Source of the DNA: Phytohabitans houttuyneae
Lineage (GTDB): Bacteria; Actinomycetota; Actinomycetes; Mycobacteriales; Micromonosporaceae
Direction: 5' to 3'
Length of the DNA: 64,000 nucleotides
NCBI RefSeq assembly: GCF_011764425.1
Contig: NZ_BLPF01000001.1
Coordinates: 2,099,001 to 2,163,000 of the forward strand
Below the pieces are notes generated by a model. It made no database searches. It was not told where the DNA came from and worked only from the letters and a program-made list of their open reading frames with translations. Positions 28,896-62,128 of the stretch are shown piece after piece. Both the position numbers and the translations under genes were made by a program. Position 1 is the first letter of the stretch. Every line of letters starts with the position of its first letter.

Positions 28896-29003
28896 AGGGC
28901 CCGGAACGCGACGGCAGCCCGCTGCCCGCTCCCGCTGATGCGGCCGCAAGGCAAATCAATTCTTACCGAAAGTACGACTGACTATCCCAACGGGAGGGCT
29001 CAA

Positions 29004-30593
29004 ATGGGTGTCAGTGAGGAGCCGGTCTTTCTGCGCTCCAATGCGATTATCGAGCCACTGGTTGACAGGTTCTATGCGTGGCTGCATATCACCGCACCGG
29101 TGCAGGCGTCGATGAACCTGAAGAACCTGCAGGTTCCGCTGCTCGAGTCGTATCTGCAGAATCCGCAGGTGCACATGGCCGCGAGCGTCAACCCGGCCCT
29201 GCGCGGCGGATACTTCGTCAACATCGACGAAACCCGCAGCATGGAGGTCGCGGCCCTGCTCGACACCATCAAGCGGGACCGCGCGGACATGCTGAACCTC
29301 GCGGCCGCCGTGGCCGAGGCGGACGACCTTCTGCGGCAGAGCGCGACGGGCTTCGACCTGACGCCGCTCTACCCCAAGCTGCCGTCCGCGCTGAACGGTC
29401 TCGTCGAGCTGGCCTACGACACCAGCAACCAGGCGTCGATGCACTTCATCGAGCCGCTCACCTACACCAGCCCCTACTACGACGTGAGCCGCCAGTCGGT
29501 GCAGCTGTCGTTGGAAGACGGTGTGGAGCGGCCGTTCATCCTCAGCACGCCGCGGCTGCCTGGACCCAACGTGCTGGACCTGCAGATCCCCTTCAACCAC
29601 CCCGGGCTCGACGAGCTGTTCAAGGCGCGCATCAAGCCCACCACCGCCGCGCACCTGCGTGAGGCGCTGGAGCTCAACGACGAGCAGGCGGCCTGGCTCC
29701 AGCGGCTGCTGACGTCGGAGCCCAGCGGTGCGCCGGACCGGCACATCACCGCGGGCGGGCGGGCCCGCTACTTCGGCCACGCGTGCCTGGTGTTCCAGTC
29801 GCCCGAGGCGACCGTGGTTACGGACCCGTTCATCAGCGCGGACAACCGCCACGGCGACCGGTTCACGCTCGACGACCTGCCGGACTACATCGACCTCGTG
29901 CTGATCACCCACGGCCACCAGGACCACATCGTGCTGGAGACCCTGGTGCAGCTGCGCTCGCGGATCGGCGCGGTGGTGGTGCCGCGGTCGTCCCGGGGCA
30001 ACCTGTGCGACCCGTCGATCGCCCTGTACCTGAAGGCGCTCGGCTTCACCGTGATCGAGGTGGACGACTTCGACGAGGTGCCGATCCCCGGTGGAAAGGT
30101 GATCGCGACGCCGTTCCTCGGCGAGCACTCCGACCTGGACATCCGCGCCAAGTCGACGTTCATCGTGAAGATCGCCGGCGCGAGCCTCTTCGTCGGCGCG
30201 GACTCCTCCGGCATCGACCCGGTCCTGTACCGCTACATCCGCAGTCACCTCGGTGACGTGGACATGGCGTTCCTGGGCATGGAGTGCGACGGCGCCCCGC
30301 TCACCTGGCTCTACCAGGGCCTGCTCACCCGCCCGGTGACCAAGAAGATGAGCGACTCGCGCAAGCTTTCGGGCTCCAACGCGGCGCAGGCCGCGGCGAT
30401 CATGACCGAGCTCAAGGCCGACGAGGCGTACATCTACGCCATGGGCGAGGAGAGCTGGCAGGGCCACGTCATGGCCACGACGTACACGGAAGACACGTAC
30501 CAACTCAAGCAGATCGAGGAGTTCCTGGGCTGGTGCTCCGGTCGCGGCATCACTGCCGAGCATCTGTTCAACAAACGGGAGTGGCGCTGGTAG
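29004..30593 (+). CDS. CmlA-type diiron beta-hydroxylase acting on a carrier-bound amino acid
   Basis: A 529-residue protein with an N-terminal domain of about 240 residues and a metallo-beta-lactamase-fold domain bearing the diiron motif HGHQDHIVLETL, later FLGEHSD and GADSSG. This length and layout match CmlA of chloramphenicol biosynthesis, which beta-hydroxylates an amino acid while it is attached to an NRPS carrier; relatives occur in ramoplanin-type clusters. ATG at 29004 follows GGGAGGG. It is the leftmost gene that clearly belongs to the peptide cluster. The two aspartate-coding A domains make carrier-bound Asp a candidate substrate, but Hpg, an aromatic residue or others are possible. 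Confidence 0.85.
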   Translation: MGVSEEPVFLRSNAIIEPLVDRFYAWLHITAPVQASMNLKNLQVPLLESYLQNPQVHMAASVNPALRGGYFVNIDETRSMEVAALLDTIKRDRADMLNLAAAVAEADDLLRQSATGFDLTPLYPKLPSALNGLVELAYDTSNQASMHFIEPLTYTSPYYDVSRQSVQLSLEDGVERPFILSTPRLPGPNVLDLQIPFNHPGLDELFKARIKPTTAAHLREALELNDEQAAWLQRLLTSEPSGAPDRHITAGGRARYFGHACLVFQSPEATVVTDPFISADNRHGDRFTLDDLPDYIDLVLITHGHQDHIVLETLVQLRSRIGAVVVPRSSRGNLCDPSIALYLKALGFTVIEVDDFDEVPIPGGKVIATPFLGEHSDLDIRAKSTFIVKIAGASLFVGADSSGIDPVLYRYIRSHLGDVDMAFLGMECDGAPLTWLYQGLLTRPVTKKMSDSRKLSGSNAAQAAAIMTELKADEAYIYAMGEESWQGHVMATTYTEDTYQLKQIEEFLGWCSGRGITAEHLFNKREWRW

Positions 30594-30662: not shown

Positions 30663-31468
30663 TCAGCGCCCCCGCCACACGGGATCCCGGCGCTCCGCGA
30701 ACGCCTTCGGACCCTCGACCGCGTCCTGGCTGTGCATCCGCCGCTGCTCCCACTCGAAGCGGGTCGCGAACGCCTCGTCCAGCGGCATCTCCAGCGACCG
30801 CATCGCCGCCTCCTTGATGGCCCGTACCGCCAGCGGCGCGGCACGCACCAGGTCCTCGACCCACCCGGCGACGCACTCGTCGAGCCGGTCGGCCGGTACG
30901 ACCTCGTTGACGAGGCCGAGCTCGGCGGCCACCCGCGCGGGCATGCGGCGCCCGGTCAGCAGGTAGCCCATCGCCGTCTTCAGCGGGATCTGCCGCGGCA
31001 GCCGGAACGCACCTCCCGCGCCCGGCACCAGCCCGAGCCGCGCCTCCGGCAGCGCGAAGACCGCGTCCTCCGCGGCGATCACGATGTCGCAGGCGAGGAC
31101 GAGCTCGAATCCCCCACCCAGCGCGTACCCGTTGACCCGCGCCACGACCGGCTTCGAGAACGTGGTCCGCTCGGTCAGCCGCGGCCAGCCGGGCAGCCCG
31201 CGGCTGCCGAACGTGGTCGGCGGCGCGCCCCCCTCGTTGAGCCGGGCCCGCTCGCGCAGGTCCTGCCCCACCGAGAACGCGCGGTCGCCGGCGCCGGTGA
31301 GCACCACCACCCGGACGTCGTCGTCGGCCTCGGCCTCGTCCCAGACGGACCCCAGCTCCTCGTGCATGCGCAGGTCCATCGCGTTGAGGACCTCGGGCCG
31401 GTCGAGCGTCACGTACGCGGCGTGGCCGCGCTTCTCGTAACGCACGCGGGAGCGCTCGGCGGCGCTCA

Positions 31469-31469
<1 letters not shown>
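30663..31469 (-). CDS. dpgD: Enoyl-CoA hydratase-like protein of the Dpg pathway
   Basis: Crotonase-fold enzyme that with DpgB assists dehydration/aromatisation of the DpgA tetraketide to 3,5-dihydroxyphenylacetyl-CoA. The 268 residues include [20 protein letters not shown], the oxyanion-hole segment [16 protein letters not shown] and [20 protein letters not shown] with a glutamate typical of active hydratases. ATG at 31469 shares one base with the dpgC stop (TGATG), so the two are translationally coupled; the long open frame further upstream belongs to a dpgC shadow. Confidence 0.9.
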
Positions 31470-32857
<1,388 letters not shown>

Positions 32858-32875: not shown

Positions 32876-33967
32876 TCAGCCGGGCGAGCTCGTGCGTTGC
32901 TCGAGTTCGTTGGCCAGCTGCAACCACTCATCCGCACAAACCCGAGCCACGTTAGCGACTATGTACGTGCAGTGTGGAGGCACCTTACCCACCACATCAA
33001 GCCGCTCATCCGACCGGATCGCACGCGAAAAAATCCACCGCAACAACATCCGACCAGACTCCGTAAACCGCAACGACGGATCACTCTGCAACCCACGCAA
33101 CATCGAAGCCAACCGCGGACCCTCAACACCACCCACACCAAACGACTTCACACCCGAACCATCACCACGCCCACGACGCACCGACGGCACCGGATCCTCA
33201 CCACGCTCAATCCGCTTCCGCACATCCCGCACCGTCGACGGCGACACCCCCGCCTCCCGCGCCACCTCACGCAACGACGCACCCGGCCGCTCACGAATAA
33301 TCGCCGAAGCCCTCAACCGACCCTCAGCATTATCCAACGGACGCACCCGACCATCCCGACCAGTCCGCGCCCGCACCTCACCATCCCCACCACCCAACGA
33401 ACGACGACGAACATTCCCCACCGTCCGCGCACCCAACCCCGTCACCGACGCAATCGCCCGATCCGACCAATTCGGATGCGACGCAATAATCCGCTCCGCA
33501 GCCCGCGTCCGATCCGCCAACGACAACGGCAACCCATGAGCAATATTCGTCTGCACCGCAAGCACAAACGCTTCCTGCTCCGAACCATCAAAAAACCGAA
33601 CCTCAATCAACTCGTCACCACGCAACAACGCAGCACCAAGCCGATGATTACCATCAATCACCCGCATCGAAGAACGATGCACAATAATCGGAGGCAACCG
33701 CTGATCCACACTCGCCAACATACGAGTATGCTCAATATCCTCCCCCGCCTGCCGCGGCGAATTCGCCGGCAGCAACGACTTGACGGGTACGAACTGGACT
33801 TCCTGGTCGATCTCGAGTGAGTTAACCGCTGGTAACTTCTGGTCGGACAGGTCGAATTGCATCCATGCCGGCACAATCGGTGACGCCGTCACCGTGGCGA
33901 CATTGCTCCCGTACTCCAAGGTGTGTCCCCCCGATAAGGATTGGATCCTCGGCACAACCCGTTGCAT
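32876..33967 (-). CDS. StrR/ParB-like pathway activator, copy 1
   Basis: Cluster-situated transcriptional activator of the StrR/Bbr/Tei15* type. It has a ParB-like N-terminal part (LLPANSPRQAGEDIEHTRML, IIVHRSSMRVIDGNHRLGAA), a central helix-turn-helix (SDRAIASVTGLGARTVGNVR) and a conserved C-terminus. Residues encoded by 32892-33772 are identical to those of the second copy at 42863; the first ~65 residues and last four differ. The coding strand is rich in G- and T-ending codons, unlike its neighbours, and the unique 5' part has two TTA leucine codons (codons 11 and 45). The start is uncertain: ATG 33967 or ATG 33862. Probably cotranscribed with dpgCD. Confidence 0.9.
   Translation of the reverse strand: MQRVVPRIQSLSGGHTLEYGSNVATVTASPIVPAWMQFDLSDQKLPAVNSLEIDQEVQFVPVKSLLPANSPRQAGEDIEHTRMLASVDQRLPPIIVHRSSMRVIDGNHRLGAALLRGDELIEVRFFDGSEQEAFVLAVQTNIAHGLPLSLADRTRAAERIIASHPNWSDRAIASVTGLGARTVGNVRRRSLGGGDGEVRARTGRDGRVRPLDNAEGRLRASAIIRERPGASLREVAREAGVSPSTVRDVRKRIERGEDPVPSVRRGRGDGSGVKSFGVGGVEGPRLASMLRGLQSDPSLRFTESGRMLLRWIFSRAIRSDERLDVVGKVPPHCTYIVANVARVCADEWLQLANELEQRTSSPG
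32892..33772. repeat. 881-bp direct repeat, left copy
   Basis: Apparently identical, base for base, to 42879-43759 (constant offset 9,987). It covers nearly the whole StrR-like coding region; identity stops abruptly at both ends inside the genes. Confidence 0.92.
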
Positions 33968-34399: not shown

Positions 34400-34711
34400 C
34401 TACGCGGCGAGACCGTGCTCCGCCACGTACGCGTGGCCGGCCCGGTCCAGTTCGGACGACGGGACGCCGGAGTCTCGAAGAGCCCGTGCCAATGCGGCGA
34501 CCGTGAGGTGCTCTAGCACCATTCCGTAGTCCACCGTCACGCCGAGGCTCTTCCGCAGCCGAGTCGCGACCCTCATCGCGGCCAGCGAGTGGCCGCCGAG
34601 CGCGAAGAAGTTGTCGTCCACGCCGATCGGCTTCTTCCGCAGGGTCGACTCCCAGCAATGCACGAGCACGACCTCAAGGACGTCACGCTGGGTGCCAGTT
34701 TCCACGGACAT
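34400..34711 (-). CDS. Free-standing peptidyl carrier protein
   Basis: A 103-residue thiolation protein with the canonical phosphopantetheine site [20 protein letters not shown] (Ser at about residue 43). ATG at 34711 follows GGAGGAG. Divergent from the second carrier protein at 35006, which has the different PltL/CloN5-type motif. Either it carries an amino acid loaded in trans, or it is the acceptor of the pyrrolyl group, analogous to CloN1/CouN1 in the aminocoumarin pathway. The window has no obvious second free A domain to load it. Confidence 0.88.
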   Translation of the reverse strand: MSVETGTQRDVLEVVLVHCWESTLRKKPIGVDDNFFALGGHSLAAMRVATRLRKSLGVTVDYGMVLEHLTVAALARALRDSGVPSSELDRAGHAYVAEHGLAA

Positions 34712-35005
34712 CGACGGCTCCTCCTTCGCCCAGGCGACAGGTGGGCGTCGCGCGGCCGGCGCGGCATCGGCCGCGCCCGGACTTGGTTCACTCTGGACAG
34801 TCGGGAGATTCGCACGGGGAAGGCGCGGCCGTCAACGCGGCGCCGGCGCAGGCTCATACGGCTTGGGACAGCGAATGTGCAACTGCGAAAACAGCAGCAG
34901 TCGCACGACTGCGACCACCAATCATCGCGGTCTACCCTCTGCTCGAAATGGCGTGGCGGCGTGGCGTCCCACGTCCGGGACAGACTCGCGATTCGGAGAG
35001 GTTCG

Positions 35006-35323
35006 ATGCCAACGGATCAGTACACGCATGTGCTGGAGATCCTGACCAACTACGTTTCCACCGGTCTGCTCGGTGACGAGAACGCAGCGGATCTCACCGC
35101 CGACACCCCTCTGCTGGAGCTCGGCGTACTCAACTCGGTCGAGACGGCGCGCCTCGTCGCGTACATCCGCGAGACCTTCGGGGTGCGGCTGCCGCCGGCC
35201 TCTATGACCGCCGGCAACTTCCGTGACCTGAAGGCGATCGCCACCCTCGTGGCCGCCCAGCTGCCGGAAGCTGCCGCCGACAAGCCGGTCCCGGCCGGTG
35301 TGGACGGAGGCGTCCGTGGCTGA
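35006..35323 (+). CDS. Prolyl/pyrrolyl carrier protein, PltL/CloN5 type
   Basis: A 105-residue acyl carrier protein with the motif LLELGVLNSVETARLVAYI; the serine after GVLN is the phosphopantetheine site, the form seen in PltL, CloN5 and RedO, which hold proline during its oxidation to pyrrole. ATG at 35006 follows GGAGAGG; the longer frame to 34589 is not conserved. The 3' end overlaps the halogenase gene by eight bases, tying carrier and halogenase expression together. Confidence 0.88.
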   Translation: MPTDQYTHVLEILTNYVSTGLLGDENAADLTADTPLLELGVLNSVETARLVAYIRETFGVRLPPASMTAGNFRDLKAIATLVAAQLPEAAADKPVPAGVDGGVRG

Positions 35324-36671
35324 CGACTACAAGTACGACGTCGGTGTGATCGGCGGCGGACCGGCCGGCTCCACCGTCGCGTCCTACCTGGCCAAGGCGG
35401 GCCTCGACGTCGCCGTCTTCGAGTCGGAGATGTTCCCGCGCGAGCACGTCGGCGAGTCGCTCGTGCCGGCGACGACGCCGGTGCTGCACGAGATCGGCGC
35501 GCTCGACAAGATCGAAGCAGCCGGCTTCCCCCGCAAGTACGGCGCGGCGTGGACCTCGGCCGACTCCCGGCCGACCGCACCGCTCGACTTCCACGTCAGC
35601 TCGCACGGCTGGGGCGTCGCGGAGATCAGCTACCACGAGCGCAACCAGCGGGGCGTCGACCGGCCGTACTCGTTCCACGTCGACCGCGGGAAGTTCGACC
35701 TCATCCTGCTCAAGCACGCCGAGGAGCTCGGCGCCTCGGTCTTCAGCGGCGTACGGGTGAACCGCGTCGACTTCACCGACCCGGACCGTCCGGTGCTGGA
35801 GACCACGATGGGCCGTACGCGGGTGCCGATCCCGGTGCGGATGGTGGTCGACGCCAGCGGGCGGCAGACCCAGCTCGGCAACCAGCTCAAGATCAAGGTG
35901 TCTGACCCGGTCTTCAACCAGTACGCGATCCACACCTGGTTCGAGGGCCTGGACCGGGAGAGCCTGGCCCGCGACCACGCCCAGTCCGACTACATCCACG
36001 TGCACTTCCTGCCGCTGGAAGACACGTGGGTCTGGCAGATCCCGATCACCGACACGATCACGTCGATCGGCGTGGTGACCCAGAAGGAGCGGTTCAAGGC
36101 CGCCAAGGACGACCTGGAGACGTTCTTCTGGGACTCGGTCCGCAGCCGCCCCGACCTGTACGACAGCCTGCAGGCGTGCAAGCGGCTGCGGCCGTTCAAG
36201 TCGGAGGGCGACTACAGCTACGCCATGCGGCAGATCGCCGGCGACGGCATGCTGCTCATCGGCGACGCGGCCCGGTTCGTCGACCCGATCTTCTCCAGCG
36301 GCGTCAGCGTCGCGATGAACAGCGCGCGGTTCGCGGCGGCGGACATCGTGGCCGCGGCCAAGGCCGGAGACTTCCGGCGGCCGAGGTTCGACAACTACGT
36401 CGACACGCTGCGGCGCGGTGTGAACAGCTGGTACGACTTCATCTCGATCTACTACCGGCTCAACATCCTCTTCACCGCGTTCATCGACGACCCGCGGTAC
36501 CGCAACGACGTCATCCGCATGCTGCAGGGCGACGTCTACGACGGTGAGGAGCCGCCGGCGCTCGGCGCCATGCGGGACTTCGTCGCCGCGGTCGAGGCGG
36601 ATCCCGACCACCTGTGGCACGACCGGCTCGGAAACCTCAAGGCGTCAGCGAGCGCCGCGGCCCTTTTCTGA
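35316..36671 (+). CDS. FADH2-dependent pyrrolyl-carrier halogenase, PltA type
   Basis: Chlorinates pyrrole-2-carboxyl bound to the PltL-type carrier, using FADH2, O2 and chloride. The 451-residue protein closely follows PltA along its length: FAD motif GVIGGGPAGSTVASYLAKAG, EHVGESLVPATTPVL, the halogenase motif TWVWQIPIT, GDAARFVDPIFSSGVSVAMN and the C-terminal WYDFISIYYRLNILFTAF. One or two chlorines cannot be told from sequence, though PltA makes the 4,5-dichloro product. GTG at 35316 lies five bases after GGAGG and overlaps the carrier gene. FADH2 may come from the flavin reductase at 61590. Confidence 0.93.
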   Translation: MADDYKYDVGVIGGGPAGSTVASYLAKAGLDVAVFESEMFPREHVGESLVPATTPVLHEIGALDKIEAAGFPRKYGAAWTSADSRPTAPLDFHVSSHGWGVAEISYHERNQRGVDRPYSFHVDRGKFDLILLKHAEELGASVFSGVRVNRVDFTDPDRPVLETTMGRTRVPIPVRMVVDASGRQTQLGNQLKIKVSDPVFNQYAIHTWFEGLDRESLARDHAQSDYIHVHFLPLEDTWVWQIPITDTITSIGVVTQKERFKAAKDDLETFFWDSVRSRPDLYDSLQACKRLRPFKSEGDYSYAMRQIAGDGMLLIGDAARFVDPIFSSGVSVAMNSARFAAADIVAAAKAGDFRRPRFDNYVDTLRRGVNSWYDFISIYYRLNILFTAFIDDPRYRNDVIRMLQGDVYDGEEPPALGAMRDFVAAVEADPDHLWHDRLGNLKASASAAALF

Positions 36672-36718
36672 GCAACGCGATGCGCGAGCGGTCCGGCGGC
36701 ACGAGGCTCCGGCCGACC

Positions 36719-37849
36719 TCACAGACCCAGCTCCCGAGCGATGATCTGGCGCTGGATGTCCGAGGTACCGGAGAAGATCGTGCCGCCGACCGCGTCGCGC
36801 AGTGCCGCCTCGACCCCGTTTTCGCTCAGGTAGCCGCGGCCACCGAGGACCTGCACGGCGTCGGCGGCACTGGCCACCGCCGCCTCCGAGACGGCCAGCT
36901 TGGACAATGCCGAAGCAAGCGGGTCGGCGTCCCCGCGGTCGATCGACCAGCAGGCGCGGTACAGCAGGAGGCGGCCGCTCTCCAGCCGCAGCTTCATGTC
37001 CACGATGCGGTTGGACACCGACTGAAACTCGCGCAGCGCCCGGCCGAACTGGCTGCGCCTCTTGGCGTGCTCCACGACCGCGTCGACGAGCCGGTCCTGC
37101 ACGCCGAGGTAGAGGGCGAACAGGCAGGTCCGCTCCCAGAGCATCGAGTGCTGGAAGACGACCGAGCCCTGGCCCCGCTCGCCGAGCACGCCCTCGTCCG
37201 GCACGAAGCAGTCCACGAACTCGACCTCGCTCGCCGGGCACGACGCCATGCCGAGCTTGCGGAACGGCGGGCCCACGCGGATCCCCTCAGCGTCCCGCCC
37301 GACTGCGAACGCCGTGAGCGAGAAGTGGCCGGCCGCCGGGTCGGTCGTGGCGTAGGTGACGAACACGTCGGCCGCCGGGCCGTTGCTCACGAAGCTCTTG
37401 GTGCCGTTGAGCAGGTACCCGCCGTCGACGCGGGTCGCCGTCGTGGCCAGTGTGGACACGTCGGAGCCGGCGCCGGGCTCGGTCATCGCGTTGGCGGCGA
37501 CGGCCCGGCCGGCGCACATGTCGGGCAGCAGCCGCTCCCGCAGCGCCGGCGCGCCGAAGTCGGCGATCGGCATCGCGCAGGCGAACAGGTGCGCGGCGGC
37601 CGCGAAGACAAGCCCGGTGTCCGGGCAGCCGCGGCCGAATGCCTCGAAGAGGTGGGCGGTGTCGAGGGCGCCGAGCCCCGCCCCGCCGTACTCGGGTGCC
37701 ACGCTCGCCCCGAGCAGCCCCTGCTTGCCCAGGGCCAGCCAGTCGTCGGGCGCGAGGCCCGGTGCGCCCGTCTCGGGCCCGAAGCCGCGCGCGGCAGCGA
37801 GCGCCTCGTCGTACCGCGCCCGCTGCTCGGGCGTCCAGCCGAACTCCAT
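36719..37849 (-). CDS. Prolyl-carrier dehydrogenase (PltE/CloN3 type, acyl-CoA dehydrogenase family)
   Basis: FAD enzyme that oxidises carrier-bound L-proline to pyrrole-2-carboxyl in two two-electron steps. The 376 residues show the acyl-CoA dehydrogenase fold with AITEP-like segment AMTEPGAGSDVSTL, RRSQFGRALREFQSVSNRIV, LLYRACWSIDRGD and the family ending GTIFSGTSDIQRQIIARELG, all arranged as in PltE. ATG at 37849 has GGAGG five bases upstream and is preferred to GTG 37861. It lies 45 bases downstream of the KAS III-like gene, same strand. Confidence 0.9.
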   Translation of the reverse strand: MEFGWTPEQRARYDEALAAARGFGPETGAPGLAPDDWLALGKQGLLGASVAPEYGGAGLGALDTAHLFEAFGRGCPDTGLVFAAAAHLFACAMPIADFGAPALRERLLPDMCAGRAVAANAMTEPGAGSDVSTLATTATRVDGGYLLNGTKSFVSNGPAADVFVTYATTDPAAGHFSLTAFAVGRDAEGIRVGPPFRKLGMASCPASEVEFVDCFVPDEGVLGERGQGSVVFQHSMLWERTCLFALYLGVQDRLVDAVVEHAKRRSQFGRALREFQSVSNRIVDMKLRLESGRLLLYRACWSIDRGDADPLASALSKLAVSEAAVASAADAVQVLGGRGYLSENGVEAALRDAVGGTIFSGTSDIQRQIIARELGL

Positions 37850-37894
37850 CGGTCCTCCCACAATCGATCGGCCCGGTCGGCCGCGCCAGACCGG

Positions 37895-38929
37895 CTACGG
37901 CGCCCAGGGCGGTGCGGCGAGCACGCGGACCACCGCGCCGGCGATGTTGACGCCCGGCCCGACGCCGAGCAGCAGCAGGTGCGTCCCCGGCACGGCCACG
38001 CCCGTGTCCAGCAGGTGGTCGAAGCCGATGACCTGGTCCGCCGCGCCGACGTGCCCGATCGTGCTGCCGTACTCCCAGGTGGTGCGCGTGAGCGGCACGT
38101 CCAGTGGGCCGAGCCGGTCTTCGACGAGCTCGCGGCCGGCGTGGTTGAACAGGACCCGGTCGACCTCGTCGAGCTTGATGCCGGCCTCGTCGAGCAGCTG
38201 GTCGACCAGCGCGCCGAACTGCTGCACGAAGCGCAGCCCGCTGTTCGTGCCGAAGCCGCCGGAGCTGGCGAACTCGGCGAACCGCGCGCCGAAGTCCAGC
38301 CGCTGCCCGAGCGTCATGTCCGGCGGGAAGAGCGGCGTGTCGCCGCGGTGCAGGCCCTCCAGCTCGGCCAGCGTCACCGAGGAGACGGACAGGATCTCGG
38401 CGAAGCCGGCTTCCCGGCTGAGCACCAGCGCGCCCGCGCCGTCCGCCATGACCAGGCCCGGGTTGCAGCGCCACCGGTCCAGCAGCGGGGAGCCGCCGAA
38501 GTTGTCAGCGGCCACGAGCAGGGCCGACCGGTCGGTGGGCACCACGCGCAGCGCCGCGTCGGCCAGCAGGAGCGCGCCGAACATGCCGTTGCAGCCCTGC
38601 CGGATGCCGGTCGCGAACACGTCAGCGGCGTCCAGGTTGCGCTGCAGGTAGGCGTACGGGCACCAGCCCTCCGGACCGGAGTGGTAGACGTCGATGTGAA
38701 AGAGGTGGCTCAACGACCGCCCCGGCACGCCCGCGCGACCCAGTGCCGTCCGGGCCGCGGACAGCGCAAGGTCGGGAGCCGACTCGTCGCCGGCGATCGC
38801 GATGCTGACGAACCCGGTCGCCTCGGCCTCGTCGGCGTCGTACCAACCGGCGGCGACCGCGTCCTCGACCGGCACCCGGTCGGCGACCCGCACCCCTATC
38901 CCACGTACGAACAGTCCTGGTGTCCGCAT
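37895..38929 (-). CDS. KAS III-like acyltransferase (CloN2/CouN2-type candidate)
   Basis: A 344-residue thiolase-fold protein. The nucleophile is in FATGIRQGCNGMFGALLLAD; a histidine occurs in VLFNHAGRELVED. The region that in true condensing enzymes supplies the catalytic asparagine (N-T-S) here reads WEYGSTIGHVGAADQ, so that Asn appears to be replaced by Ser. This fits an acyl-transfer rather than a condensing role. CloN2 of clorobiocin biosynthesis, a KAS III homologue, moves the pyrrolyl group between carrier proteins; the present gene lies inside the pyrrole cassette, which supports the same role. AAGGA precedes the ATG at 38929. Analogy to CloN2 is inference. Confidence 0.75.
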   Translation of the reverse strand: MRTPGLFVRGIGVRVADRVPVEDAVAAGWYDADEAEATGFVSIAIAGDESAPDLALSAARTALGRAGVPGRSLSHLFHIDVYHSGPEGWCPYAYLQRNLDAADVFATGIRQGCNGMFGALLLADAALRVVPTDRSALLVAADNFGGSPLLDRWRCNPGLVMADGAGALVLSREAGFAEILSVSSVTLAELEGLHRGDTPLFPPDMTLGQRLDFGARFAEFASSGGFGTNSGLRFVQQFGALVDQLLDEAGIKLDEVDRVLFNHAGRELVEDRLGPLDVPLTRTTWEYGSTIGHVGAADQVIGFDHLLDTGVAVPGTHLLLLGVGPGVNIAGAVVRVLAAPPWAP

Positions 38930-39097
38930 TCCTTCACCACCGCCGGTAGTTCGTCCGTCCAAGTGGCGCCGTTCCGTGGTTCGGCGCCCTCGGAACACTA
39001 TGTAGGCGGCCGAGGCGAGGCAAGCGAAGTCAGTTCGTGCGACAAAAACCCTATCGAGGTGGCAAATGACTGGTAAAAGCATGGCGGTGCGCGCGCG

Positions 39098-40573
39098 ATG
39101 AACACCCATTCCCATGCGGCTCATCTCCCGGCCCTGGTCCGCGACGCGGCTGCCCGCACCCCGCACGCGCCGGCCGTTCGGGACGGCGACACCACGTTGT
39201 CCTATGTAGACCTTGACCGCCTCGCCGGCCGGTACGCGCAGGCCTTGGCCGCGTCGGGTGTCGGCCGCGGCGAGCGGGTCGTGCTCTGGACGTCCAAGAG
39301 CGTCGACACGGTGGCGGTCATGCAGGGCGCGCTGCGGCTCGGCGCCGTGTACGCACCCGTGACGCCGTCGAACCCCGTCGCGCGGGTCCTGCGCATCGCG
39401 GACGGCTGCGCCGCGACGGTCATCGTCACGGACGAGCCGGTGGCCGGCGACCCCCGGTTCGTCAGCCTCGGTGAGCTGCTCGCCAAGCCGGTCCTGCCGA
39501 CGCCGCGCGTGCCTACGCACGACGTCACGCCGGAGCCGGACGACTGCGCGTTCATCCTCTACACCTCCGGTTCGACCGGTGAGCCGAAGGGCGTGTGCAT
39601 CAGCCACCGCAACGCACTGGCCTTCGTGTGCTGGGCCGCGGACGAGACCGGCCTTGTCGCCGGCGACCGGCTCGCCAACCACGCGCCCTTCAACTTCGAC
39701 CTGTCGGTCTTCGACATGTACGGCGCGTTCCACTCTGGAGCGTGCGTCGACCTGGTGCCGGCGGCGTTCGCGTACGCGCCGGAGGCCCTCACCGAGTTCC
39801 TGTTCGACCGCGGCATCACGGTCTGGTACTCGGTGCCGTCGGCGCTCCAGCTGATGATGAACGACGGCGGGATGCTCGACCGCGGCGTACCGGCCTCGTT
39901 GCGGGTCTGCGTGTTCGCCGGCGAACCGTTTCCGCTCGCCGACGCGCAGCGCCTGCGGGCCGCGTGGCCCTCGGTCCGGATGTTCAACTGGTACGGGCCG
40001 ACGGAGACGAACGTCTGCACGTCCTACGAGATGACGGAGCGGGACCTGGCCGCGACCCGGCCGCTGCCGATCGGAAAGGCGTGCAGCTCCGACCGGGTGT
40101 GGCTCGACCCGCCCGGCGCCGAGATCGGCGAGATCGTCGTGGAGGGGCCCACGGTCATGCTCGGCTACTGGGGCCAGCCCCGCCACGAAGGGCCCTACCG
40201 CACCGGCGATCTGGGCCGGGTCGATCCCGACGGCAACTTCGAGTACGCCGGGCGCCGCGACCAGATGATCAAAGTGCGCGGCCACCGCGTGGAGCCCGGC
40301 GAGATCGAGACGGTCCTCGCCACGCATCCCGCGGTCGCCACGGCCGCGGTCGTCGTGGTCGGCACCGGCCTCGAGGCCCGCATCCTCGCCGTCGTCGTCG
40401 CGGCCGACGGCCAGCGCCCCACGCTCCTCGGGCTGAAGGCGCACTGCGTCGCCCACCTTCCCGGCTACATGGTGATCGACGCGCTGCGACTCGTCCCCGA
40501 GCTGCCCCGCACCTCCAACGGAAAGGTGGACCGGACCGCCCTCACGACCGGCTCGCCGGTCCGCGTCGGATAA
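39098..40573 (+). CDS. L-prolyl-AMP ligase (PltF/CloN4 type)
   Basis: Stand-alone adenylation enzyme that activates proline and loads the PltL-type carrier. The 491 residues have the A-domain core motifs LYTSGSTGEPKGV, FNWYGPTETNVCT, YRTGDLG and the C-terminal lysine motif RTSNGKVDRTAL. No carrier or condensation domain is attached. Proline specificity rests on resemblance to PltF and on the neighbouring dehydrogenase, halogenase and carrier, not on a decoded pocket. It diverges from the KAS III-like gene across about 170 bases and is followed by two repeats and a terminator. Confidence 0.87.
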   Translation: MNTHSHAAHLPALVRDAAARTPHAPAVRDGDTTLSYVDLDRLAGRYAQALAASGVGRGERVVLWTSKSVDTVAVMQGALRLGAVYAPVTPSNPVARVLRIADGCAATVIVTDEPVAGDPRFVSLGELLAKPVLPTPRVPTHDVTPEPDDCAFILYTSGSTGEPKGVCISHRNALAFVCWAADETGLVAGDRLANHAPFNFDLSVFDMYGAFHSGACVDLVPAAFAYAPEALTEFLFDRGITVWYSVPSALQLMMNDGGMLDRGVPASLRVCVFAGEPFPLADAQRLRAAWPSVRMFNWYGPTETNVCTSYEMTERDLAATRPLPIGKACSSDRVWLDPPGAEIGEIVVEGPTVMLGYWGQPRHEGPYRTGDLGRVDPDGNFEYAGRRDQMIKVRGHRVEPGEIETVLATHPAVATAAVVVVGTGLEARILAVVVAADGQRPTLLGLKAHCVAHLPGYMVIDALRLVPELPRTSNGKVDRTALTTGSPVRVG

Positions 40574-40841: not shown

Positions 40842-41534
40842 TCAGGCCGGTGTCGCCTCGGCGGCGGCCCGCCGCAGCGCCCGGTCGCAGGCGGCCAGGT
40901 GCACGCCCAGCGCGTCCTCGTAGCCGACGCTCTGTGCCTCCGAGGTGAGCTGCCGGCGCACGGCCAGCTCGGTCCCGGAGCCGGCCGCGACGCGGCGGAC
41001 GGCCGCCGCGAGAGCCGCGGAGGGATCACCGCTCACCTCGTGCACGAGGTGCAGGTCGCGCGCCTCGTTAGCGGTCAGCGCACCGCCGAACAGCGCCGCC
41101 CGGCGGACCACGCCGGCCGGCAGCTGGCGGGACAGCCGGTAGAGCGACATCCCCGGCCACATGAGGTCGCCCTCGGTCGAGAGCACCAGCCGGGCCGACT
41201 CGCCGGCGATCCGCAGGTCGGTCACGAGCAGCGCGTCCAGCGCGGCCCCGCCGCAGTCGCCGGTGGCCACCGCGATCGTGGCGGCCGGAAGCCGCTCCAG
41301 GCGGCGCAGCGCCTGCTCCCATTTGCTCACGAGCTTGACCGTCAGCCCGCCGGCACGCGCCCCCGCGGGCGCACCGGCCGCCTGCACCACCACGATGGCC
41401 TTGCCATCGAGGTCTTCCGCCCGGTCGCAGGCCGCGGCGACGGCGGCGGTGTGGTCGACCAGCCGCCCGTCCGCGCCGTCGATCCGGACCACCAGAACAT
41501 CGCCGTCGCCCGACACGCTCACGTCGGTGAACAT
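40842..41534 (-). CDS. dpgB: Enoyl-CoA hydratase-like Dpg pathway protein
   Basis: Crotonase-fold partner that increases DpgA output and helps form 3,5-dihydroxyphenylacetyl-CoA. The 230-residue protein starts MFTDVSVSGDGDVLVVRIDG and shows AIVVVQAAGAPAG, ATGDCGGAALDALLVTDLRI and LTSEAQSVGYEDALGVHLAA, characteristic of DpgB and shorter than ordinary hydratases. GGGGGGAG precedes ATG 41534, 14 bases past the dpgA stop. The second half of the operon (dpgCD) lies 8 kb away. Confidence 0.88.
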   Translation of the reverse strand: MFTDVSVSGDGDVLVVRIDGADGRLVDHTAAVAAACDRAEDLDGKAIVVVQAAGAPAGARAGGLTVKLVSKWEQALRRLERLPAATIAVATGDCGGAALDALLVTDLRIAGESARLVLSTEGDLMWPGMSLYRLSRQLPAGVVRRAALFGGALTANEARDLHLVHEVSGDPSAALAAAVRRVAAGSGTELAVRRQLTSEAQSVGYEDALGVHLAACDRALRRAAAEATPA

Positions 41535-41548
41535 GTTGCTCCCCCCGT

Positions 41549-42673
41549 TCACCACTGCACCAGCACCGTCTCGATTGTGGAGCCCGGTCCCATCGTCATC
41601 AGTACGCCGTAGTCCCCCGGCGCCACGATCCGCTCGCGCAGCAGGCGCTGGTAGGAGAAGAGGAACGAGCCGCTGGACAGGTTGCCGTAGTCGCGCAGCA
41701 CACCGGTCGTGTGCCGCAGGTCGTGCCGGGTCAGCCCCAGGTTCACCCGCACCGCGTCGATGACCTTCTTGCCGCCGGAGTGGACCAGCCAGTGCTTGAC
41801 GGCGCCGCGGCGCAGGCCGGCACCGGACAGCAGGCGGTCCACGACCTGCTCCGCGTGCGCGCCCACCACATACGGGATCTCGGGGTCGAGGAAGAAGCTG
41901 AACTTGTTCTGCTCGTCGTCCCAGTCGTAGCGCATCGCGTCGAACGCGTCGGTGATGATGTGGCTGGCGAACGACAGCACGCGCGGGCCGTCGAAAGCGG
42001 CCTCGCCGCCGGTCGCGGGCGCCATCAGCGCGATGGCCGCCGCGCCGTCGCCGAAGAGGCTGTTGACCACCGCGGTGCGCATCGTCGAGTCCATCACGTA
42101 CGCCGCGGAGCACGCTTCCGCGCACACCATGACGGCCACGCGGCCCGGGTTGGCCTTCGCCCAGTTGGCGGTCGCGTTGAGCCCGTTGAGGCCGGCGTTG
42201 CAGCCCATGCCGACGACGTCGGCGCGGTGGCAGCTCGGGTCGATGCCGAGCTCGCGGATGAGCAGCGCGGTCAGGCCCGGCGTGAGGAAGCCGGTGGACG
42301 TCACGCAGCACAGGTAGTCGATGGCCGACAGCGTGATGCCCGCGTCCGCCAGCGACGCCCGCAGCGCGTCGGCGCCCATCTCGACCGCGAGCTTCTTGTG
42401 CTTCTGCAGCAACGCACCCTGCCGCTCCTCGGCGAAGGTGCCGTCAGCATTGAGCGGCGGCACCGTCAGGTGCCGCCGCTCGATGGCGCTGTTGCCGAAC
42501 ACCGAACGCACCTTCGGGTCGGCGATCCGGAACATGTCGAGCAGCTCCTGCTGCGTGTACGACATGTCGGTGACAGCCGTGCCGACGCCGATGATCTGCG
42601 CGTCCGGGACGACCGTCTCGTGCCGGGCCGCACTGAGGGCGTGGGGCGCCGGGGCGTTGAGGGTCAGTGTCAT
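41549..42673 (-). CDS. dpgA: Type III polyketide synthase making 3,5-dihydroxyphenylacetyl-CoA
   Basis: Condenses four malonyl-CoA units in the first step of Dpg synthesis. The 374 residues include the catalytic cysteine in VVGMGCNAGLNGLNATANWA, the active-site Phe/His regions and the C-terminal GPGSTIETVLVQW (chalcone-synthase-like GPG loop). Length equals known DpgA proteins. ATG at 42673 (MTLTLNAPAPHALS) is chosen because similarity starts about 25 residues later; the frame is open to 42862. It lies downstream of StrR copy 2 with a 32-bp inverted repeat between them. Confidence 0.95.
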   Translation of the reverse strand: MTLTLNAPAPHALSAARHETVVPDAQIIGVGTAVTDMSYTQQELLDMFRIADPKVRSVFGNSAIERRHLTVPPLNADGTFAEERQGALLQKHKKLAVEMGADALRASLADAGITLSAIDYLCCVTSTGFLTPGLTALLIRELGIDPSCHRADVVGMGCNAGLNGLNATANWAKANPGRVAVMVCAEACSAAYVMDSTMRTAVVNSLFGDGAAAIALMAPATGGEAAFDGPRVLSFASHIITDAFDAMRYDWDDEQNKFSFFLDPEIPYVVGAHAEQVVDRLLSGAGLRRGAVKHWLVHSGGKKVIDAVRVNLGLTRHDLRHTTGVLRDYGNLSSGSFLFSYQRLLRERIVAPGDYGVLMTMGPGSTIETVLVQW

Positions 42674-42862: not shown

Positions 42863-43891
42863 TCAGGCCGTTTCGGCGGTGCGTTGCTCGAGTTCGTTGG
42901 CCAGCTGCAACCACTCATCCGCACAAACCCGAGCCACGTTAGCGACTATGTACGTGCAGTGTGGAGGCACCTTACCCACCACATCAAGCCGCTCATCCGA
43001 CCGGATCGCACGCGAAAAAATCCACCGCAACAACATCCGACCAGACTCCGTAAACCGCAACGACGGATCACTCTGCAACCCACGCAACATCGAAGCCAAC
43101 CGCGGACCCTCAACACCACCCACACCAAACGACTTCACACCCGAACCATCACCACGCCCACGACGCACCGACGGCACCGGATCCTCACCACGCTCAATCC
43201 GCTTCCGCACATCCCGCACCGTCGACGGCGACACCCCCGCCTCCCGCGCCACCTCACGCAACGACGCACCCGGCCGCTCACGAATAATCGCCGAAGCCCT
43301 CAACCGACCCTCAGCATTATCCAACGGACGCACCCGACCATCCCGACCAGTCCGCGCCCGCACCTCACCATCCCCACCACCCAACGAACGACGACGAACA
43401 TTCCCCACCGTCCGCGCACCCAACCCCGTCACCGACGCAATCGCCCGATCCGACCAATTCGGATGCGACGCAATAATCCGCTCCGCAGCCCGCGTCCGAT
43501 CCGCCAACGACAACGGCAACCCATGAGCAATATTCGTCTGCACCGCAAGCACAAACGCTTCCTGCTCCGAACCATCAAAAAACCGAACCTCAATCAACTC
43601 GTCACCACGCAACAACGCAGCACCAAGCCGATGATTACCATCAATCACCCGCATCGAAGAACGATGCACAATAATCGGAGGCAACCGCTGATCCACACTC
43701 GCCAACATACGAGTATGCTCAATATCCTCCCCCGCCTGCCGCGGCGAATTCGCCGGCAGGATGGTTTTGACCGGCACCCATTCTGTTTCCACAGTCTCCG
43801 CGGGTGTTGCCTGGATCAATACCGACGAACTTCTCCACACCGCTGGTTTGGGTTGGTCCAGGACCGTCCCGACCAAACTCGCTTGTTCCAC
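42863..43891 (-). CDS. StrR/ParB-like pathway activator, copy 2
   Basis: Second activator, identical to copy 1 from IIPANSPR-equivalent residue ~50 to four residues before the end (it ends TAETA instead of TSSPG). The domain layout is the same: ParB-like part, helix-turn-helix, C-terminal DNA-binding region. GTG at 43891 follows GGGGGAGG by nine bases, giving a 342-residue protein starting MEQASLVGTVLDQPK. Unlike copy 1, its unique N-terminal part has no TTA codon. It lies upstream of dpgA on the same strand. The two proteins could therefore respond to different translational controls while binding the same targets. Confidence 0.9.
   Translation of the reverse strand: MEQASLVGTVLDQPKPAVWRSSSVLIQATPAETVETEWVPVKTILPANSPRQAGEDIEHTRMLASVDQRLPPIIVHRSSMRVIDGNHRLGAALLRGDELIEVRFFDGSEQEAFVLAVQTNIAHGLPLSLADRTRAAERIIASHPNWSDRAIASVTGLGARTVGNVRRRSLGGGDGEVRARTGRDGRVRPLDNAEGRLRASAIIRERPGASLREVAREAGVSPSTVRDVRKRIERGEDPVPSVRRGRGDGSGVKSFGVGGVEGPRLASMLRGLQSDPSLRFTESGRMLLRWIFSRAIRSDERLDVVGKVPPHCTYIVANVARVCADEWLQLANELEQRTAETA
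42879..43759. repeat. 881-bp direct repeat, right copy
   Basis: Same sequence and orientation as 32892-33772. The 9,106 bases between the copies contain the pyrrole cassette, the free PCP and dpgAB. Confidence 0.92.
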
Positions 43892-44454
43892 GCCTGTCGT
43901 CCTCCCCCGTTTGCGTGCAACTCCTGGCAAAACGCGAAGACCAATCGCTTTTCGCGCTCACAGCCGCCAAGAAGATCGATGCCCGTAATGACTGCGAAGC
44001 TAGCCGACGGGGACACACGTGTGCGACCGCGCACTTTACGCACTCGAACATCGATGCGAGGGGCGGATGCGAGGGGAACTTGCGTTCGCCAATAGCGGGT
44101 TTGGTGCCGATTTGCACTGCATTGGGGCGACTGCGCCATCACGCAGTCATACGAACGTAGGAGGCGATCTTACCCAACAGGGCGCCTGTTTCACCAGGGC
44201 GGGTCAAGCGAGCCGGCCCGGTAGGCGGCGCGACGTAACCCTCCGTCGTCATATCTCGCTCCACTGGCGGCGGAGACTCCCCCGCGCGACCCCATGGACA
44301 TCGATTGTCACTTTTCGGCAAAGCTAACGAGAATACGATTTCCCTGCCCTGGAGCAGCAGATCTTTGCACTGCCCGTGAATCTATTGCAGCCTCAAGCAA
44401 ATGCCAAGCCGACACGCTTGGTTATGGTTTGGTTAGCCCTGCGTCGACTGGAGA
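43892..44454. other. Intergenic region upstream of StrR copy 2
   Basis: About 560 bases with lower GC than the genes. It should contain the StrR copy 2 promoter and the end of the hydroxymandelate oxidase/aminotransferase transcript. No coding frame resembling a protein family was found. Confidence 0.45.
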
Positions 44455-47925: not shown

Positions 47926-48729
47926 GTGCCGTACCTGGCCGCCAACGGCATCCAGCTCTCCTATCAGCGCTCCGGTAGCGGCGAACCCGTCCTGCTCATC
48001 ATGGGATCGTCGGCCGCGGGTCACGTCTGGACGTTGCATCAGACACCCGCGCTGCACAAGGCGGGATACGAGACCGTCGTATTCGACAACCGCGGCATCC
48101 CGCCGTCGGACGCGCCGCCCGGAAAGTACACGCTCCCCGAGCTGGTCGCCGACACCAAGGCCCTCATCGAGGAGCTCGACCTCGCCCCCTGCCGGATCGT
48201 CGGCACGTCGATGGGCGCGATGATCGCGCAGGAGCTGGCGATCGGCTGGCCCGACCTGGTCCGCTGCGCGGTGCTGATGGCCACACGAGCCCGGGCGGAC
48301 GCCGTCCGTCTGGCTCAGGCCGCCGCCGACCGCGCCCTGATCGAGAGCGGGATCAAGCTGCCGGCGAAGTACGAGGCCGTCGAGACGGTCATGAAGATGC
48401 TGTCGCCGACAACCCTCAACAACGACGACGCCATCGCCGGGTGGCTGGAGGTCTTCGAGCTCGCGGGCGAGGCGAGCACCACGGCCAGCGGCCAGGTGTG
48501 GGTCGACCTCCTCCAGGACCGCCGCGACGCCCTCCGCACGATTTCCGCTCCTTGCCGCGTCATCGGCTTCGCCGACGACCTGATCACCCCGTCACACTTG
48601 GCCGCCGAGGCCGCGGACGCCATTCCCAACTGCGACTTCGTGGAGATCCCCCGCTGCGGCCACCTGGGCTACCTGGAGCGCCCCGACGAGGTGAACGCCG
48701 CCATCATCGAGTTCCTCGACAAAAACTGA
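47926..48729 (+). CDS. Alpha/beta-hydrolase fold protein (possible acyltransferase or thioesterase)
   Basis: A 267-residue enzyme with the complete triad: nucleophile serine in IVGTSMGAMIAQELA, aspartate in IGFADDLITPSHLA, histidine in IPRCGHLGYLERPDEV. GTG at 47926 follows GGAGG by six bases. It differs from typical type II thioesterases in its HG/oxyanion region (VLLIMGSSAAGHVW). In aminocoumarin pathways an enzyme thought to be of this superfamily (CloN7/CouN7) attaches the pyrrolyl group to a hydroxyl; with a CloN2-like protein and free PCP present, that role is worth testing. Simple hydrolysis or proofreading is equally possible. Confidence 0.78.
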   Translation: MPYLAANGIQLSYQRSGSGEPVLLIMGSSAAGHVWTLHQTPALHKAGYETVVFDNRGIPPSDAPPGKYTLPELVADTKALIEELDLAPCRIVGTSMGAMIAQELAIGWPDLVRCAVLMATRARADAVRLAQAAADRALIESGIKLPAKYEAVETVMKMLSPTTLNNDDAIAGWLEVFELAGEASTTASGQVWVDLLQDRRDALRTISAPCRVIGFADDLITPSHLAAEAADAIPNCDFVEIPRCGHLGYLERPDEVNAAIIEFLDKN

Positions 48730-62084: not shown

Positions 62085-62128
62085 CGTCAGTCCTTCCCCG
62101 CGCTCCCGCAGATCGTCCATGCGAGTGC

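Follow-up and report, generated by a model that had tools for sequence, protein, structure and literature searches.

In the pyoluteorin and marinopyrrole pathways a ligase, a carrier, a dehydrogenase and a halogenase act in succession. Hormaomycin is a nonribosomal peptide capped by a chlorinated, N-hydroxylated pyrrole-2-carboxyl group, and ramoplanin and chersinamycin are lipodepsipeptides with a 17-residue, Hpg-rich order. CloN2 of clorobiocin biosynthesis is KSIII-like. A two-carrier relay, from CloN5 through CloN2 to CloN1, is reported for clorobiocin in an excerpt of PMC11218499, and a reference title describes gunungamide A as a sponge depsipeptide with a chloropyrrole.

By sequence homology, a chloropyrrole cassette, dpg genes and NRPS genes lie together at one locus of Phytohabitans houttuyneae NBRC 108639T, an actinomycete of plant roots (Table 1). 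Homology supports the predicted ligase, PltL-type carrier, dehydrogenase, halogenase, KSIII, second carrier, starter condensation (C) domain, dpg genes and 23 NRPS modules, the last with a thioesterase (TE). We estimate a probability of about 0.6 that these form one cluster directing a 23-residue, phenylglycine-containing peptide with its N-terminus capped by a chlorinated pyrrole-2-carboxyl group. The chlorination, attachment site and structure of this putative product are predictions.

Table 1. Features of the locus, with positions counted from the start of the window (the whole 64,000-nucleotide stretch of DNA analysed).
Feature	Position	Strand	Support
CmlA-type di-iron beta-hydroxylase	28938..30593	+	Pfam CmlA_N 290 bits
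dpgD	30663..31439	-	NCBIfam DpgD 462.7 bits (cut-off 400); 81% homologue in G334
dpgC	31469..32710	-	NCBIfam DpgC 657 bits (cut-off 530)
StrR-like regulator copy 1 (name inferred)	32876..33967	-	Pfam HTH_23
Stand-alone NRPS-type carrier	34400..34711	-	Pfam PP-binding 53.6 bits; best PDB matches PvdL, linear gramicidin synthetase
PltL-like prolyl carrier	35006..35323	+	Best PDB matches PltL 6o6e_E and 2n5h, E 2e-11; Pfam PP-binding 33.1 bits
FADH2-dependent PltA/Mpy16-type halogenase	35298..36671	+	PDB 5buk 702 bits, ChlB4 685, PltA 601
Prolyl-carrier dehydrogenase (PltE/RedW/PigA-like)	36719..37861	-	NCBIfam PigA 426 bits, RedW 420 bits, both below equivalog cut-offs (500, 650)
KSIII-like acyltransferase (ChlB3/CerJ type)	37895..38929	-	ChlB3 322 bits; Cys-His-Asp triad
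PltF-like L-proline:carrier ligase	39098..40573	+	Best PDB match 6o6e_B, 463 bits
dpgB	40842..41534	-	NCBIfam DpgB 269.8 bits (cut-off 140)
dpgA, type III PKS for 3,5-dihydroxyphenylacetyl-CoA	41549..42595	-	NCBIfam DpgA 650.6 bits (cut-off 425)
StrR-like regulator copy 2 (name inferred)	42863..43930	-	Shares identical block with copy 1
Hmo-HpgT fusion (FMN dehydrogenase + aminotransferase)	44455..46788	-	Pfam FMN_dh 401 bits, Aminotran_1_2 88 bits
Alpha/beta hydrolase	47926..48729	+	Also in chersinamycin-like G164
NRPS N9: T-C-A(Asp)-T, third module	49475..52963	-	Domain analysis
NRPS N8: starter C-A(aromatic, DAWGVAGVA)-T-C-A(Asp)	52558..59033	-	Frame broken within starter C
ABC transporter pair (ATPase + membrane protein)	59422..61504	+	Membrane match below its Pfam cut-off
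Flavin reductase	61593..62087	-	Pfam Flavin_Reduct 116 bits
Free-tryptophan halogenase (5-/6-halogenase type)	62129..63730	-	Six best PDB matches tryptophan halogenases, 960-649 bits

The pyrrole cassette and a proposed route to a cap

A first-pass annotation of the window had described a complete chlorinated-pyrrole cassette of four genes, starting at 34400 and lying between dpgCD (30.7-32.7 kb) and dpgAB (40.8-42.6 kb). Gene positions agree with this placement, and PDB and NCBIfam matches confirm the PltF-like ligase, PltL-like carrier, PltE-like dehydrogenase and PltA-like halogenase. The cassette is thus real, but its start needs correction: by its best PDB matches the frame at 34400 is an NRPS-type carrier, and the PltL-like carrier, with its LNS serine motif, is the gene that follows. 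Nor are the four genes the whole set, as the KSIII gene, which had gone unmentioned, also belongs to it.

The best match of the ligase, 6o6e_B, we take to be PltF from its PltL partner. Prolyl-carrier dehydrogenases are included among the best PDB matches of the dehydrogenase, and residues C120, H300 and D305 of the KSIII (numbering from 38950) align with C113, H296 and D301 of ChlB3. The halogenase is assigned to the family acting on carrier-bound pyrrole, with its substrate predicted. A chance origin of the cassette matches is very unlikely: they extend over almost the full length of the proteins, and two further genomes have the cassette together with the same starter C. One point against a chloropyrrole cap is that ChlB4, an enzyme for a salicylate-type acyl group, is almost as good a match to the halogenase as 5buk, presumably Mpy16.

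We propose that the ligase would load proline on the PltL-like carrier, the dehydrogenase would oxidise it to a pyrrolyl group, and the halogenase would add one or more chlorines. The ChlB3/CloN2-like KSIII would then pass the pyrrole to the second, NRPS-type carrier, from which the starter C of N8 would take it and acylate the first residue (aromatic, perhaps chlorotryptophan), with extension over the remaining modules to the TE. A chloropyrrole starter would thereby replace the fatty-acyl starter of ramoplanin- and chersinamycin-like lines. Both relay components, a KSIII with the Cys-His-Asp triad and a second stand-alone carrier, are found here.

The chloropyrrole may instead sit elsewhere in the same molecule, on a side-chain hydroxyl (of beta-hydroxy-Tyr/Asp, Thr or Dpg) or another nucleophile, delivered by the KSIII or the alpha/beta hydrolase in the manner of CerJ or CloN7, with a different group at the N-terminus. 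Enzymes related to the KSIII, CerJ among them, move acyl groups to sugar hydroxyls (an excerpt of PMC9573744), eight of the 54 PltA-type loci examined have a KSIII of this family (38-49% identity), and hydroxyls could come from beta-hydroxylase-type genes, of the TauD family and of the CmlA type. The CmlA-type gene (homologues 79% identical in G334 and 84% in G331, P. alkalitolerans) probably encodes a beta-hydroxylase acting on the carrier, with Tyr/Asp as predicted substrate. However, the hydrolase, the candidate CloN7-type partner, also occurs in G164, where the KSIII and PltL-type carrier were not found, and is therefore not pyrrole-specific; in G334 the second carrier directly precedes the starter-C gene, and in G331 it does so at a distance of 3.6 kb; and the cluster yielded no alternative acyl source for the starter C. 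We consider side-chain attachment unlikely.

Conservation of the cluster

In G334, a one-contig genome of the genus Plantactinospora, the whole set recurs, reordered, in the same cluster, with homologues of the ligase (77%), KSIII (78%), dehydrogenase (81%), halogenase (83%) and carriers (PltL-like 73%, NRPS-type 64%) side by side. In P. alkalitolerans the KSIII, dehydrogenase and second carrier (58%) stand in a row ahead of the starter-C gene, with an exporter and the alpha/beta hydrolase on the opposite strand between, and the first three codes are again aromatic-Asp-Asp; the halogenase, ligase and PltL-type carrier (66%) are on another contig. The dpg genes found there are less similar (DpgA 66%) and may be part of some other cluster; their contig, a third one, also has an HpgT half on its own and a further halogenase. 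Among 354 Micromonosporaceae genomes, with five to six candidates scored per genome, the three listed KSIII matches above 51% identity (100, 78 and 72%) come from three genomes, and these also supply the three best starter-C matches (100, 60 and 58%).

These comparisons bear on whether the pyrrole genes serve a small product of their own and sit in the Dpg-peptide locus by happenstance. In this strain the dpg operon is interrupted, and identical repeats flank the insert (881 bp of StrR-like copy 1 are 100% identical to 42879-43759 in copy 2), so a rearrangement took place. Moreover, dpgB, C or D occur in the flanks (up to 10 kb) of none of the 54 PltA-type loci examined, one of which has a 32% DpgA relative, and G005 and G181 each have a halogenase relative and a DpgA, though megabases apart. 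Against this, the dpg operon of G334 is unbroken and the cassette still lies in the cluster, between other shared cluster genes, and the cassette here holds no PKS or other finishing enzyme among the ORFs scanned. A separate product is therefore a very improbable reading. Since the full set stands together in G334, and pyrrole genes and starter C recur in P. alkalitolerans, the peptide's cluster very probably includes the pyrrole genes, as the first-pass annotation had it.

The assembly line and its starter

The NRPS genes encode three modules opened by the starter C and 20 ending in the TE. Table 5 of PMC7692728 gives the N8 domains as CS/Aphe/T-LCL/Aasp/T. This assembly has breaks in several NRPS frames, and the line would work in this strain only if the breaks are sequencing errors. 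From the adenylation (A) domain codes the predicted order is Ar-Asp-Asp-X-Asp-X-Gly-X-Tyr-Thr-Dpg-Asp-Gly-Asp-Tyr-X-Dpg-X-Thr-Tyr-Asp-Tyr-Asp, and three dual E/C domains imply D-Thr, D-Tyr and D-Dpg. Two A domains carry the code DALSLGTVM, as does position 13 of G164, which has dpgA-D and whose Hpg positions read DAYHLGLLC or DAYHLGMLC. Going by this position of a ramoplanin-like array, DALSLGTVM is probably a Dpg code; A8-like A domains also occur in G318 and G208, both without DpgA above cut-off, so the assignment is not certain.

The locus had been called an Hpg/Dpg peptide cluster. The Dpg half stands, with dpgA-D above their NCBIfam cut-offs. The Hpg half is weaker: the Hmo-HpgT fusion is present, but the genome's two over-cut-off 4HPPD/HmaS-type genes both lie outside the cluster, which thus does not encode a supply of Hpg. 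The flavin reductase is the likely partner of the halogenases.

The solved structures that the N8 starter C resembles are condensation domains taken to be starters, namely 7c1k (presumably RzmA) and CDA synthetase I, followed by ObiF1, EntF and 1l5a (presumably VibH). Outside its own clade its nearest relatives are starters of lines taken as lipid-started (G164, 44% identity; CDA), before the aryl starters EntF and VibH. This homology, together with an acyl-CoA dehydrogenase gene beyond the far end of the NRPS genes, could indicate an ordinary lipopeptide, with its fatty acid activated by an enzyme encoded elsewhere and the cassette modifying something minor or providing an alternative starter. 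Despite the homologous starter C, a search of 181 kb here and of 200 kb around G334 turned up no fatty-acyl-AMP ligase that would feed it, the prolyl ligase being the one non-NRPS AMP ligase found in either region; the same kind of search found a fatty-acyl-AMP-ligase-like protein in G164. As the cassette is also kept with the starter C in three genomes, we regard a lipid start as decidedly improbable and favour the chloropyrrole cap.

Comparison with known systems

The combination had been put forward as a new class, no described product being known to join the two features. No product joining chloropyrrole and Dpg was found in the open-access literature searched, but the cluster has been published as pks/nrps-7 of this strain (Komaki and Tamura 2020, PMC7692728), with neither a pyrrole nor a Dpg interpretation. 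The domain order agrees, and the ORF sizes given there (3673, 1353, 4620, 2056, 459, 492, 104 and 106 aa) are each one above ours. That report counts 24 residues, with the prolyl ligase as residue x, against 23 modules here, and reads the type III PKS (DpgA) as a polyketide moiety; its main text lacks 'halogenase', 'phenylglycine' and 'Dpg', and has 'pyrrol' only for the pyrrolomycin of another species. Because chloropyrroles on peptides are already known (hormaomycin, gunungamide A), the novelty is a new combination or variant, not unprecedented chemistry.

At about even odds, a Phytohabitans/Plantactinospora family of lines has swapped a ramoplanin-type lipid starter for a chlorinated pyrrole (PltL carrier to KSIII to NRPS-type carrier to starter C), and makes long (16-23 residue), acidic, lipid-free, Dpg-containing peptides that bear a chloropyrrole cap and probably contain chlorotryptophan, a class not yet described. 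If so, a whole starter-unit pathway is exchangeable in an assembly line related to ramoplanin-type antibiotics, and a concrete carrier-to-carrier relay is offered for testing. The type strain and its genome-finished relative would be places to seek a chlorinated peptide of ~2.7-3.3 kDa, and the published reading of the type III PKS and the free A domain would be corrected.

The ligase, carrier, dehydrogenase and halogenase are common to pyoluteorin (PltF/PltL/PltE/PltA) and marinopyrrole (Mpy16), where a polyketide synthase follows; here a KSIII and a second carrier do. Hormaomycin is a short cyclodepsipeptide without Dpg, in contrast to the long Dpg peptide predicted here, and we know of no KSIII relay in it. 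Glycopeptide antibiotic clusters encode cross-linking P450 enzymes, whereas none is present here (0 of 23 P450 matches in the genome fall at C1 2.128-2.240 Mb); no glycosyltransferase was seen among the ORFs scanned, a part of all ORFs. The clorobiocin pyrrole pathway (CloN5/CloN4/CloN3/CloN2/CloN1), in the excerpt of PMC11218499, likewise has a prolyl ligase and a carrier, a dehydrogenase, a transfer enzyme and a second carrier. Its pyrrole, however, receives a methyl group and is attached to a sugar with CloN7, whereas this locus has a halogenase, and in the relatives the second carrier keeps company with an NRPS starter C. With the ramoplanin and chersinamycin clusters (G164, taken as Micromonospora chersina) the locus shares the CmlA-type gene, alpha/beta hydrolase, ABC exporter, HpgT half, StrR-like regulator, dpgA-D, a homologous starter C and MbtH. 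It departs from their 17-residue, Hpg-rich order in having 23 A domains against 17 in G164, with different residue codes in another order, and a prolyl/pyrrole set instead of a fatty-acyl-AMP ligase.

The cluster and its chloropyrrole cassette

The locus lies in a genome of 11.34 Mb (5 contigs), and its cluster in Phytohabitans houttuyneae NBRC 108639T was tabulated as 'pks/nrps-7' by Komaki and Tamura 2020 (PMC7692728). In the window's left 28 kb, the reading frames that were scanned mainly have housekeeping or other functions without a link to the cluster (recA, recX, transporters, hydrolases), and we infer that the cluster spans from about 28.9 kb, past the right end of the window, to about 141 kb in extended coordinates (the same numbering carried onward).

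Features of the cluster (window coordinates; ext., extended coordinates)
Feature	Position	Strand	Remarks
881-bp direct repeat, copy 1	32892-33772		inside a StrR-like gene
Second carrier, NRPS type	34400-34711	-	best solved relatives NRPS-type carriers
PltL-like carrier	35006-35323	+	best solved relative PltL
Halogenase	35298-36671	+	best solved relatives 5buk/ChlB4/PltA
Dehydrogenase	36719-37861	-	best solved relatives 6cxt_B and prolyl-carrier dehydrogenases
KSIII	37895-38929	-	best solved relative ChlB3; CerJ, DpsC lower in list
Prolyl ligase	39098-40573	+	best solved relative proline ligase 6o6e_B
881-bp direct repeat, copy 2	42879-43759		inside a StrR-like gene
SIP (siderophore-interacting) flavoprotein	46808-47803		directly adjoins Hmo-HpgT fusion
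N8-N9	49475-59033		starter C-A-T-C-A-T-C-A-T
Flavin reductase	61593-62087		adjoins Trp halogenase
Free-tryptophan-type (second) halogenase	62129-63730		resembles free-Trp 5-/6-halogenases
N1-N7	67299-131488 (ext.)		20 modules, last with TE
1.6-kb near-identical stretches	87366-88978 and 106327-107941 (ext.)		98% DNA identity

The first-pass annotation had placed pyrrole genes between dpgCD and dpgAB, and this holds: the dpg genes are split into two parts that flank the cassette, and DpgA, DpgB, DpgC and DpgD all exceed their NCBIfam cut-offs. The PltL-like carrier of that annotation is likewise present, but on the forward strand; the frame at 34400 was rejected for this role because it matches NRPS-type carriers, while the forward-strand frame matches PltL. 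Residues C120, H300 and D305 of the KSIII align with C113, H296 and D301 of ChlB3 in the structure-match alignment (motif checked in the window and in G334, a one-contig relative), and an excerpt of PMC9573744 describes the Cys-His-Asp of ChlB3-type KSIII enzymes as an acyl-transfer triad.

The assembly line

Domain searches gave 23 NRPS modules over N8-N9 and N1-N7. Because N8-N9 opens with a starter C and has no TE, it would precede N1-N7. Taking N8-N9 first, and with two of the codes drawn from realignment, the A domains run DAWGVAGVA (aromatic), Asp, Asp, DTLDAGLVD, Asp (positions 1-5); DALFMGIVM, Gly, DALFLGAAI, Tyr/Bht, Thr (6-10); DALSLGTVM, Asp, Gly, Asp, Tyr (11-15); DTLDMGFID, DALSLGTVM, DTLNVGLVD, Thr, Tyr (16-20); and Asp, Tyr, Asp (21-23), the residue names being those that the codes are taken to denote. 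A 23-mer of this composition would weigh about 2.7-3.3 kDa, the five unassigned positions being bracketed by Ala and Tyr. A dual-type linker, recognised by its motif, occurs at three places. These coincide with the three dual E/C domains that Table 5 of PMC7692728 lists beside one starter C, and the same table gives the same residues wherever residues are named, bar three positions: the DALFLGAAI position is Leu, one position that is Tyr here is left open, and the first residue is Phe. Since the second halogenase resembles free-Trp halogenases and a flavin reductase adjoins it, that aromatic first residue could, on sequence grounds, be chloro-Trp instead of Phe. A glycopeptide product was rejected because no P450 was found in the cluster.

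Several junctions in both NRPS gene sets show interrupted reading frames, the breaks falling inside A or C domains, and whether such breaks are a technical artefact was left undecided by Komaki and Tamura (PMC7692728). Homopolymers (5-base runs) occurred at the breaks in only 2 of the 8 spans searched, and the NRPS frames of G334 are long and unbroken. The 1.6-kb near-identical stretches cover both DALSLGTVM A domains (A8 and A14 of N1-N7), and the pairs A4/A10, A7/A16 and A9/A11 share 96-98% protein identity; such pairs are predicted to be recent module duplications within the line.

A proposed N-terminal chloropyrrole and its alternatives

We favour, at a probability of roughly 0.6, a chlorinated pyrrole attached to the peptide N-terminus through the starter C. 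This domain would require an acyl donor, which the prolyl/pyrrole route would supply. In G334 the genes for the second carrier and the starter C are immediate neighbours. A fatty-acid start is improbable: the starter C does group with starters from lines taken to be lipid-started, but no non-NRPS AMP ligase other than the prolyl ligase turned up in 181 kb here or in 200 kb around G334. Attachment of the pyrrole to a peptide side chain is the less doubtful alternative, though still unlikely, and draws on relatives of the KSIII that, in an excerpt of PMC9573744, are able to acylate hydroxyls. That the pyrrole genes make a separate product we regard as very improbable. Among the matches listed, the three KSIII matches above 51% identity and the three best starter-C matches fall in the same three genomes.

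Conservation of the pyrrole genes and the dpg genes was followed in two sets of genomes. Firstly, a halogenase scan of genome contigs returned 54 PltA-type loci. With flanks of up to 10 kb, dpgB, dpgC or dpgD occurred at none of them (0/54), on which count Dpg genes were rejected as usual neighbours of PltA genes, and a single locus (L036) had a DpgA relative, of only 32% identity. DpgA exceeded its cut-off in 3 of 39 genomes (these 39 hold 40 of the 54 loci, the other 14 lying outside the comparison); Plantactinospora alkalitolerans, one of the three, is a member of the cluster family, and at the halogenase locus of another, S. albiflavescens, no dpg gene was found; the third is A. thailandensis. 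Secondly, among 354 Micromonosporaceae genomes, searched with few candidates scored per genome and the best matches given, DpgA passed its cut-off in 47 and a halogenase reached E<=1e-100 in 20. By these two lists five hold both: the present genome; G334, with the two genes 21 kb apart; P. alkalitolerans, with them on different draft contigs; and both G181 and the Phytohabitans genome G005, where megabases separate them.

G334, presumably a Plantactinospora by way of its genus-mate P. alkalitolerans, carries the full set on its single contig: CmlA, hydrolase, exporter, TauD-type protein, Trp halogenase, ligase, KSIII, dehydrogenase, halogenase, both carriers, starter C, Hmo-HpgT, StrR and dpgA-D, with 16 NRPS modules (4+8+4) within the 160 kb examined. 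P. alkalitolerans, identified by a DpgA with the same place and score as in the genome of the named locus L032, has halogenase, ligase and PltL-type carrier together on one contig; a second holds KSIII, dehydrogenase, second carrier, starter C and aromatic-Asp-Asp codes, with MbtH, TauD-type, StrR and CmlA genes. Its dpg genes, on a third contig and of lower similarity, may serve a different cluster, and A domains resembling A8 (67-69%) lie on other contigs.

A locus in another Phytohabitans genome (G003:C1:5468000-5481000; L088, L089), where halogenase (71%), ligase and dehydrogenase adjoin an Hmo-HpgT homologue without dpg genes, was rejected as a sister cluster: the 140 kb examined yielded no homologue of the Trp halogenase, the KSIII, the second carrier or any of dpgA-D and, in addition to the genes just named as present, only a 39% PltL-type carrier. 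It is perhaps the pyrrolomycin-like cluster that PMC7692728 assigns to P. rumicis. Within the P. houttuyneae genome, two further PltA-type halogenases and three KSIII acyltransferases occupy 17 kb (G000:C2:8763-25468; L097, L098), perhaps the deschlorothricin-like cluster of the same paper.

Supply of Dpg and Hpg

A type III PKS as the source of a polyketide part was rejected, since the protein exceeds the DpgA equivalog cut-off and DpgB, C and D lie alongside. Two StrR-like genes bracket the cassette and dpgAB, and share the 881-bp block at 100% identity; it may stem from gene conversion or a duplication of recent date, or be a fault of the assembly. In G334, whose DpgD is 81% identical to that of the cluster, the order strR-dpgA-dpgB-dpgC-dpgD is uninterrupted, which makes the split arrangement the probable derived state; tandem duplication with subsequent losses could have produced it. 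The cluster also encodes an Hmo-HpgT fusion. No HmaS-type gene was found in the cluster; the genome has two 4HPPD-type genes over the cut-off, both elsewhere, one of them (C1:747764) at most 11 kb from Hmo/HpgT homologues. Such a gene is retained beside other cluster genes in G334 and P. alkalitolerans.

We consider it likely that DALSLGTVM is a Dpg code. It stands at position 13 of the array in G164, a genome with a chersinamycin/ramoplanin-like cluster and dpgA-D, while the other Hpg positions there carry DAYHLGLLC or DAYHLGMLC; we take this genome to be M. chersina and its array to follow the ramoplanin order, Asn-Asn-Hpg-Orn-Thr-Hpg-Hpg-[trans Thr]-Phe-Orn-Hpg-Thr-X-Gly-... A second array (G053:C97:1-38000; L159, L160), presumably feglymycin-like, is one frame of ~11,960 aa in which ten of 12 A domains have DALS/DVLS codes, and dpgABC sit on a contig apart from it. 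Against the Dpg assignment, G318 and G208 have related A domains and no DpgA over the cut-off, although both codes of this class in the 40 kb of G318 examined are DALSVGAVI, differing from DALSLGTVM. The code strings had no match in the open-access papers searched.

Comparison with known systems

In clorobiocin biosynthesis, according to an excerpt of PMC11218499, CloN2 moves the pyrrole from the carrier CloN5 onto a second carrier, CloN1, and each of the three has an equivalent in the cassette. The starter C of G164 is homologous (44% identity). However, that cluster has a fatty-acyl-AMP-ligase-like protein (best NCBIfam model 401 bits against a cut-off of 775) beside an MbtH gene, whereas a prolyl ligase, KSIII and PltL-type carrier are found here; neither KSIII nor PltL-type carrier was found in the 120 kb of G164 examined.

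The locus is published, while its pyrrole, halogenase and Dpg content goes without mention in the main text of PMC7692728. The first-pass annotation knew of no product joining chloropyrrole and Hpg/Dpg, and the open-access literature searched likewise yielded, among the papers listed, no Dpg/Hpg product bearing a chlorinated pyrrole (one paper mentions both, in two unrelated references), but the locus itself was already in print. Hormaomycin is a precedent for pyrrole-capped NRPS peptides. Taken together, these points place the predicted product as a variant of known chemistry, not an unprecedented kind.
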